Source of the DNA: Marinobacterium mangrovicola
GTDB taxonomy: Bacteria > Pseudomonadota > Gammaproteobacteria > Pseudomonadales > Balneatricaceae
Length of the DNA stretch: 64,000 nucleotides
NCBI RefSeq assembly: GCF_004339595.1
Contig: NZ_SMFU01000011.1
Span: forward strand, 124,001-188,000
Direction of reading: 5' to 3'
Positions 14,377 to 61,893 of this stretch are shown here, piece after piece (position 1 is the first letter of the stretch; every line of letters starts with the position of its first letter). Under the pieces are notes generated by a model. It ran no database searches, was not told the origin of the DNA, and worked only from the letters and a program-made list of their open reading frames with translations. Made by a program: the position numbers and the translations under genes.

Positions 14377-14395
14377 AAATTCGCCGACAACAACA

Positions 14396-14427
14396 AAAGC
14401 CCGAGATTTAGGTCTCGGGTTTTTTTC
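14396..14427 (+). terminator. Rho-independent terminator after ligB
   Basis: A CCCGAGA/TCTCGGG stem (14400-14406 with 14413-14419) with a 6-nt loop is followed by seven T, starting 20 nt after the ligB stop. Confidence 0.93.
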
Positions 14428-14507
14428 GTTTTAGCGCCTTTACCGTTTGGGCGCGTTGGCATGCCAGGGCACGATTTCAACCTAATTATCTGAGCGGTGC
14501 TTTTATT

Positions 14508-14724
14508 CCCCTTCAGTGCAGCCGAGCATCGCAGACTGAAAGAGAAACAAGAGATCGACTGTCTGAACCGCGAAGCGGTGAGTTTGGAGATCTCTCTCTT
14601 TCAGGCGAGAAGCACAGGGTAGTCGGCGTAGCCGACCAAGCCTTAGGGGCGGTCAGGGATTGTTAAGGGACTTTTCGCAAAGTCCCTTAACTCGCCTGCA
14701 GGCGAAACCTGCGCGAAAAAGTGC
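14508..14724 (+). repeat. Structured dispersed repeat, copy A (about 217 nt)
   Basis: This stretch matches the reverse complement of 61591-61809 over its whole length. It folds into four stem-loops: H1, CTGAAAGAGA (14536-14545) with TCTCTTTCAG (14595-14604), enclosing GAGATC/GATCTC and CCGC-gaa-GCGG; H2, GTCGGC-gta-GCCGAC (14622-14636); H3, a 13-bp stem (14662-14674 with 14679-14691, loop TCGC); H4, the palindrome TCGCCTGCAGGCGA (14692-14705). Arms of H1 and H3 differ between copies but stay paired. It lies between the convergent 3' ends of ligB and the transglutaminase gene and contains no gene. I do not recognise it as a named RNA or repeat family. Confidence 0.85.
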
Positions 14725-42651: not shown

Positions 42652-43034
42652 GTGGGTCTCTCGTGTATGGGAGTGGGCCGCTAAGTGCCTGGGGGCTGCG
42701 GGAAAGGCGAGAGTCTAGCGTATTTTCTGAACTTGCCGTGATCGACTTTATCTTTCACGAAGAAGCTATTCGTGCGAGCAAGGTGTTGCCTCGAGAGATT
42801 CGCGGTTGCGCTGGCGTTAAGCATGATGGCTTGGCTATAACAGCCAAGCTAGAGCGATAAACCGATGATTGTTGCGTGCAGTGAATGGCTATGGAGTGAC
42901 TTTTTTTGGGCCGGCTATGCCGTCGTGAATAACTTGAACTAACCTTCAACAAATGTGATGATCCGTCGCGGAGGACGACCTCCCCAATCGGTTAAATGGC
43001 CGGGACGACCCGGCGCTTTGTAGAGGTTGTCGTC
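42652..43034. other. 383-bp divergent gap with hairpin and possible gene remnant
   Basis: This is the divergent region between azlC and the PACE gene. At 42829-42849, GCTTGGCT pairs with AGCCAAGC around a 5-nt loop. An open stretch at about 42735-42860 reads LAVIDFIFHEEAIRASKVLPREIRGCAGVKHDGLAITAKLER before a stop. It looks protein-like but has no start codon with a ribosome site, and I do not recognise the family. It could be the tail of a decayed gene. The AT-rich part after 42900 is a likely promoter for the PACE gene. Confidence 0.4.
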
Positions 43035-61496: not shown

Positions 61497-61590
61497 CCTC
61501 AGTCAAGCTGCCACTGGCATAGCAGTGGGTTCTACATGAAGCTCCCTATGAGGCATCACGCTATTGGTCACTCGCGAGATCAATGATCTC

Positions 61591-61809
61591 CGCATTTTTT
61601 GAGGCCGGTTTCGCCTGCTGGCGAGCAAAGGGACTTGTTCGGACAAGCCCCTTTGCAATCCCAAACCGCCCCTATGCCTTGGTCGGCTACGCCGACTGCC
61701 CTGTGCTTCTCGTCTGAAAGAGCGGGAAAGGGAACTCACCGCTTCGCGGCTCAAACAGCCTTTCCCTTGTATCTCTTTCAGCCTGCGATGCTCGGCAGCG
61801 CCAAAGGGG
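61591..61809 (-). repeat. Structured dispersed repeat, copy B (about 219 nt)
   Basis: The reverse complement of this stretch aligns along its whole length with copy A at 14508-14724. The third stem is GCAAAGGGGCTTGT with ACAAGTCCCTTTGC (61625-61656 on the plus strand), paired throughout with one G-T pair when read in the minus sense. The inner part of the first stem is GGGAAAGG/CCTTTCCC in place of GAGATC/GATCTC. The H2 hairpin and the CCGC-gaa-GCGG tip are identical. It lies between the convergent LysR and UbiD genes; the rest of that 397-bp gap holds no gene. Confidence 0.85.
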
Positions 61810-61893
61810 ATGGATCGCTGCGTTTAGGTCGTCCTGAGGCATCCAGCGCCGTTTTCATCAAGGCGTTAGAAAGGCCAGACCTCGTTAATTACG

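Follow-up and report, generated by a model that had tools for sequence, protein, structure and literature searches.

Two published accounts describe REPs and REPINs as dispersed, non-coding, folding sequences that reach high copy number in intergenic regions, where they occur as head-to-head doublets and as singlets (PMC8049555, PMC3733652). In the latter, the REP unit is a palindrome of 20-40 bp, and the TIRs of TIRtrons are longer inverted repeats that occur as monomers and dimers, some of them self-complementary (PMC3733652). The family analyzed here, two copies of which lie in a 64,000-nt stretch of the Marinobacterium mangrovicola genome (the window), is real, widespread, structured and mobile-looking, and its habit is closest to that of REPINs and TIR repeats. 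It shares with REPINs its dispersal, its doublets and singlets, its folding, its high copy number and its place in the gaps between genes, but its arms are ~200 nt long and carry four hairpins, there is no association with Y1 transposases across genomes, and its pairs can enclose cargo. The unit is thus a core of ~200 nt with several hairpins and not a 20-40 bp palindrome, and over 276 genomes it shows no correlation with Y1 transposases; a single RAYT-like neighbor was seen in genome G090.

Other known systems resemble the family in part. The likeness to TIRtrons lies in the longer inverted repeats, in the monomers and dimers and in the self-complementarity of some; here, however, no transposase is flanked by the element (seven Marinobacterium loci; one-sided in G090), TIRtrons being compared by their published description and not by sequence. 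MITEs are likewise short and non-coding, and the inverted outer ends found in one genome (G133) are a further likeness, but here the internal fold is conserved between genera and neither an autonomous partner nor a target duplication was seen. Integron attC sites, as generally known, are also folded sites beside exchangeable foreign genes, but the cassettes found here are scattered and are bounded by inverted, not same-facing, copies.

We hold with moderate confidence that the repeats are dispersed, non-autonomous, structured elements of a REPIN- or TIR-like kind, mobilized in trans, and that their inverted pairs bound exchangeable cassettes. Each unit would consist of the structured core (helix P1 and hairpins H1 to H4), folding in its sense strand, together with lineage-specific outer ends, and the unpaired blocks would most likely be the recognition surface for a protein encoded elsewhere. 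Units copied by that protein would land at new sites, for the most part in short convergent intergenic gaps. The basic form in many lineages would be the head-to-head doublet, and DNA entering between its arms would make the doublet the border of a cassette with exchangeable content.

The window copies and their fold

The sequence-only reading had described a repeat of ~218 nt, and the end-to-end alignment it gave, 14508-14724 on the plus strand (copy A) with 61591-61809 on the minus strand (copy B), was borne out, the conserved blocks it quoted being present in both. The core common to copies is shorter, spanning only 14508-14709 (+) in copy A and 61607-61809 (-) in copy B. These cores match positions 1-200 of our covariance model R1 with 191.8 and 219 bits, respectively, each being one of the 18 sequences from which the model was built. 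Copy B belongs to a longer subfamily, with homology that starts near 61884 and continues to a 3' hairpin at 61529-61511, which gives it an extent of 61511-61884 (-) with limits judged by eye. In an alignment of this subfamily (six of seven selected rows, two having had one name), the common sequence starts with TGTCGCTC, after a clear T-run in four of the six rows, and the terminal hairpin is followed by ATTTTT in four of the six. The ends are exactly defined in only some of the subfamilies.

Both window copies lie between convergent genes: the neighbors of copy A are a LigB-family gene and a transglutaminase-like gene, and those of copy B are a LysR-type gene and a UbiD gene. The bidirectional intrinsic terminator of the LigB-like gene, terminator-like on both strands, lies 5' of copy A at 14395-14430 (+). 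One flanking protein shares 99% identity with a protein of M. lutimaris DSM 22012, which we take genome G003 to be; G000 denotes the genome of the window, C5 the contig that holds it and C5:138508 copy A. Elsewhere in the window, a Guanidine-II riboswitch at 42967-43013 (+) (Rfam RF01068, 38.3 bits) overlaps the predicted start codon of a BTP chlorhexidine-efflux family gene.

One fold is common to copies A and B. In copy A, all on the plus strand, it comprises (i) P1 (14508-14649), which pairs 14508-14512 with 14645-14649 and 14514-14517 with 14640-14643, (ii) H1 (14536-14604), which pairs 14536-14544 with 14596-14604 and, in its upper part, 14551-14558 with 14587-14594, (iii) the hairpin H2 (14622-14636), (iv) the hairpin H3 (14662-14691) and (v) the hairpin H4 (TCGCC...GGCGA, 14692-14705). 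The inner four pairs of P1 covary strongly in the family, yet they are only half formed in copy A. Both sides have changed in 5 of 6 pairs of H2 and in 9 of 14 pairs of H3, while H4 provides little covariation evidence because it is nearly invariant. A copy in genome G006 (L163) is without H1 and H2 and keeps P1, H3 and H4.

The paired stem changes that had been noticed between the two window copies are genuine: the inner part of H1 changes from GAGATC/GATCTC to GGGAAAGG/CCTTTCCC, and both arms of H3 are altered in concert. Among 18 diverse sequences, 4 of them from another genus (G013), aligned with MAFFT without regard to structure, both sides have changed in 34 of the 51 pairs. For this structure, which was drawn after viewing RNAalifold output on the same alignment, covariation was 0.465, compared to a mean of 0.145 for shuffled partners and at most 0.090 for slid ones. 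Standard pairs filled 95.5% of 905 cells, compared to 78.2% (sd 0.8) in 500 shuffles and only 38-51% when partners were slid by 1-3 columns. Stems have been rewritten while the unpaired blocks (GCAGCCGAGCAYYGCAG, CTGTYTGAG...GAGTTT and CGARAAGCRCAGGG) stayed nearly constant, most clearly in G013. Covariation within the genus and between genera thus strongly supports the proposed selection on intrastrand structure, and further copies, checked for unpaired drift in the stems, stay paired. Repeats in convergent gaps are commonly dismissed as debris; here a multi-helix fold survives the replacement of most of its stem sequence.

The selected form had been proposed to be RNA or cruciform DNA. A G-T pair on one strand is an A-C pair on the opposite strand, and a symmetric cruciform should therefore tolerate both equally. 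In 75 Marinobacterium copies (2 of 77 having been left out beforehand), the 3,896 cells of 52 pairs, chosen by RNAalifold, which itself accepts G-U, held 3,722 Watson-Crick, 86 G-U, 16 A-C and 72 other combinations. With partners slid, A-C exceeded G-U in 8 of 8 controls. The bias was small in the 18-sequence set (17 G-U vs. 9 A-C). Since G-U is tolerated and A-C is not, it is the fold of one strand that is selected, and it is well supported that the selected form is either RNA or a single DNA strand. The symmetric cruciform, A-C being so much rarer than G-U, was rejected as the main selected form, and the earlier proposal can be narrowed accordingly.

Covariation with G-U tolerance, and loops conserved across genera, would also be expected of a functional RNA, acting as a 3'-UTR or in trans, that has been spread by recombination and whose mobility and cargo are side effects. 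We consider such an RNA unlikely. A simple scan found no sigma-70-like promoter at either window copy, and a terminator stands between copy A and its upstream gene. A conserved regulator would also be unusual in having at least 40 copies per genome, in forming mirror-image doublets and in being absent from two close relatives of the same genus (G002 and G004).

Copy number, location and turnover

Two copies proved to be far too few for this genome. A DNA search of it gave 41 matches, one of which is the H3 palindrome of copy A read backwards, leaving at least 40 copies with 40 of 64 candidates scored, and a local search found a partial extra copy at C5:85636. By the same kind of search, M. lutimaris has at least 40 matches (40 of 56 candidates having been scored) and G001 has 9, two of them being pieces of one place, while G002 and G004 have none; altogether 8 of 38 genomes gave matches, our own included. 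A search with R1, in which 9 candidates per genome were scored, gave matches in 49 of 276 Gammaproteobacteria at E <= 0.001 (42 of 216 genera, own genome included). A phylum-wide draw of unspecified class make-up gave matches in 8 of 299 genomes, again with our own, all in one class. Several R1 matches lie at contig ends.

That no named family was recognized agrees with our comparison to Rfam 15, in which neither the window copies nor 20 distant loci had a match and nothing relevant appeared up to E 5; the search for a known mobile element likewise found none. The family is a potential new Rfam or repeat-library entry. Of 120 listed 14-mer loci in viral contigs, none fits the fuller two-block motif, and blastn gave no plasmid match for two distant doublets and no phage match for one of them. 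Text searches of mainly open papers, in which repeats are not searchable by sequence, found no description of the family. Similar-looking repeats may occur in Xanthomonas and Pseudomonas.

It is very improbable that the repeat derives from an already described structured element, be it a group II intron, a HEARO-like guide RNA of IscB/TnpB or an attC site of an integron, even though an omega RNA would be of similar size and attC, as generally understood, is also a folded single-strand site. The Rfam models for group II introns and HEARO were not matched. RRXRR (PF14239) had no match in 6 genomes, in a search to which the control genomes were silent too, and M. lutimaris has no RVT_1 match despite its many copies. 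The copies that flank cassettes face opposite ways, a further point against attC.

The elements prefer gaps between convergent genes. Of the 39 copies in G000 with both neighbors called by our own gene finder, 28 lie in convergent, 8 in tandem and 3 in divergent gaps; the gaps of at least 100 bp on C5 number 22 convergent (some holding elements), 70 tandem and 43 divergent. Terminators were found on the 5' side of 18 of 40 copies, compared to 2 of 40 in sense and 6 of 40 in antisense on the 3' side. This 5' excess may reflect insertion beside terminators or a small gap on the other side. A rule by which the element is sense to its upstream gene was dropped because convergent gaps satisfy it in any orientation; tandem gaps gave 5 for and 3 against. 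ORFs starting MLGCAEG run antisense across the element (L188, 6404-6778; L184, 6553-7518; L282, 7096-7515); they look spurious and may be called as genes in annotation.

Turnover was followed by comparing C5 with 400 kb of the M. lutimaris contig C20, with C20:86319 and the partial element C20:373611 lying outside the comparison. Same-facing orthologous counterparts exist for C5 elements 94, 17973, 68128, 85636, 106519 and 109756, and opposite-facing ones for C5:53778 and copy A. Copy B is absent from M. lutimaris, in which that gap holds a plain terminator, and C20:104755 has no counterpart in G000. C5:109073 and C5:109756, with the ~480 bp between them, correspond to a single M. lutimaris element, which looks like local tandem duplication. 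The best M. lutimaris match, sought in a set made up of the C20 copies and part of the remaining G003 copies, is the positional one for C5:94, 17973, 106519 and 109756 but not for copy A, C5:53778, C5:68128, C5:85636 and C5:109073. Sites are thus subject to insertion, loss, replacement or conversion, and copy turnover is well supported. In-place inversion at copy A found no support, as the opposite-facing M. lutimaris copy is 84% identical and a copy elsewhere in that genome is 90% identical. On contig C2 of G000, two same-facing elements enclose what is left of an enzyme gene, its 3' portion (L187, 14457-14657); M. lutimaris has the complete gene (L184, 4293-5723), which places the end of a deletion near an element.

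Doublets, inverted pairs and their cargo

Head-to-head doublets, the REPIN arrangement of two inverted units with a short spacer, were found at 16 of 33 distant loci (36 of 37 sources matched, L170 being the exception; the 33 were tabulated without L163, L164, L165 and weak fragments in L325 and L167) and in 13 pairs of G133, and are unusual in Marinobacterium, the copies of which are mostly single. G133 has 37 elements: the spacer measures 50-51 nt in 12 of its doublets and 356 nt in one, and 11 elements lack a listed partner. Inverted outer ends of ~45 bp are present in the 12 aligned doublets, and 12 of the 13 doublets lie between convergent ORFs. No clear target duplication was seen in 13 flanks read by eye, and among 33 matches to the G133 end motif none was noticed around a transposase-sized insert and no autonomous unit was seen. 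The ends of a G106 unit form 34-bp inverted repeats, and two G106 copies that lie in different surroundings share 98.8% identity over 242 bp.

Spacers of 0.8-4 kb separate the members of head-to-head pairs in L187, L184, L185, L188, L282, L175, L327, L360, L353, L388 and L389; the 11 spacers represent 8 loci because two slots (slots 1 and 2, see below) are counted in three and two species, and wider pairs of about 10 kb (L189) and 14 kb (L192) were left out of the count. The GC content of the spacer is below that of its surroundings in all 11, ranging from 0.35 vs. 0.59 in L187 to 0.49 vs. 0.51 (whole locus) in L353. Five spacers between same-facing copies have GC contents of 0.60, 0.57, 0.53, 0.52 and 0.51.

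Anti-phage matches are clear in 2 of the 11 spacers and weak or partial in two more. L187 carries an RT-Protease XI retron (type XI, E 8e-188) and L185 a LEM-3-type GIY-YIG gene (PD-T4-3 model, E 7e-14). L184 has only weak IetS, SspF and Mrr_cat matches, and L388 has a TIR domain split over two frames together with pentapeptide repeats. The cargo of L282 is cold-shock and DUF1294, and that of L175 has GAF/transporter matches that are sub-threshold only. The family search of cargo gave no match for L327, L360, L353, L389 or the L188 protein.

Two exchange slots were seen, both in one genus. Their contents vary from species to species, with an anti-phage retron among them. In slot 1, the right-hand gene follows the element directly in each species and is 94% (G003) and 87% (G001) identical to that of G000. 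The cargo is the retron in G000, a 3.5-kb ATPase/Mrr-like cluster in G003 and the GIY-YIG gene in G001. No blastn or blastp similarity was found between the G000 and G003 cargos, and the G001 protein was compared with the other cargos through family matches only. On the left side G000 and G003 agree and G001 is rearranged. G007 has the right-hand gene without element or cargo and with a different left neighbor (no R1 match in L401). In slot 2 (C5:106519 and 109073), the flanks of G000 and G003 are 91-93% identical, and the cargo of G000 is a 634-aa lipoprotein-like gene, that of G003 a cold-shock/DUF1294 gene; the only likeness between the two lies in 88 nt at the edge and in a 31-residue match of the ORFs there.

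For the exchange of cargo, and for that only, homologous recombination could be the route. The slot copies are about 80-90% identical, same-site copies are often not nearest relatives, and inert repeats that recombine and so swap the DNA between them would explain the change of cargo without an enzyme. We regard this as possible but doubt it as an account of the family, since it leaves unexplained the conserved fold, the 50-51-nt spacer of G133 and near-identical copies in unrelated flanks. On our preferred reading, of trans-mobilized repeats whose inverted pairs bound cassettes, it would be the pair itself, and not ordinary nearby recombination, that causes the exchange. If the pair is the moving part, it would provide a route for small cassettes without their own transposase, and the DNA between inverted copies would be a place to search for new defense genes.

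The putative mobilizing enzyme

A dedicated enzyme would, on this account, move the pair together with its cargo. We put forward only tentatively that the family is an unnamed cassette system of Gammaproteobacteria, in which inverted pairs of ~200-nt repeats serve as ends for a putative enzyme that inserts or exchanges foreign, partly anti-phage cassettes at convergent gaps.

One candidate would be a RAYT/TIRYT-like tyrosine transposase of the Y1 (HUH) family, which would make the repeat, as a REP/TIR-type sequence, a further TIR family like those of Di Nocera et al. 2013. That paper (PMC3733652) reports both single and dimeric TIR repeats, some of them self-complementary, as well as REPs located between convergent genes, and a fold of one strand suits a single-strand transposase. 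The Y1_Tnp family did not track the element, however: counts by eye put it in 38 of the 49 genomes with the element and in 152 of the 227 others, and at E 0.001 there is none in G106 (one contig) or G099, each with many copies. No element lies within 1.5 kb of any of seven Y1 loci in Marinobacterium. We therefore consider a Y1 enzyme of this kind somewhat unlikely, although G090 offers a RAYT-like and an IS200-like gene, each beside an element. These two are the only Y1 neighbors noticed: the RAYT-like gene (L416, 6133-6903) lies 214 bp from an element and the IS200-like gene (L415, 3662-4096) about 540 bp from another, in each case with an element on one side only.
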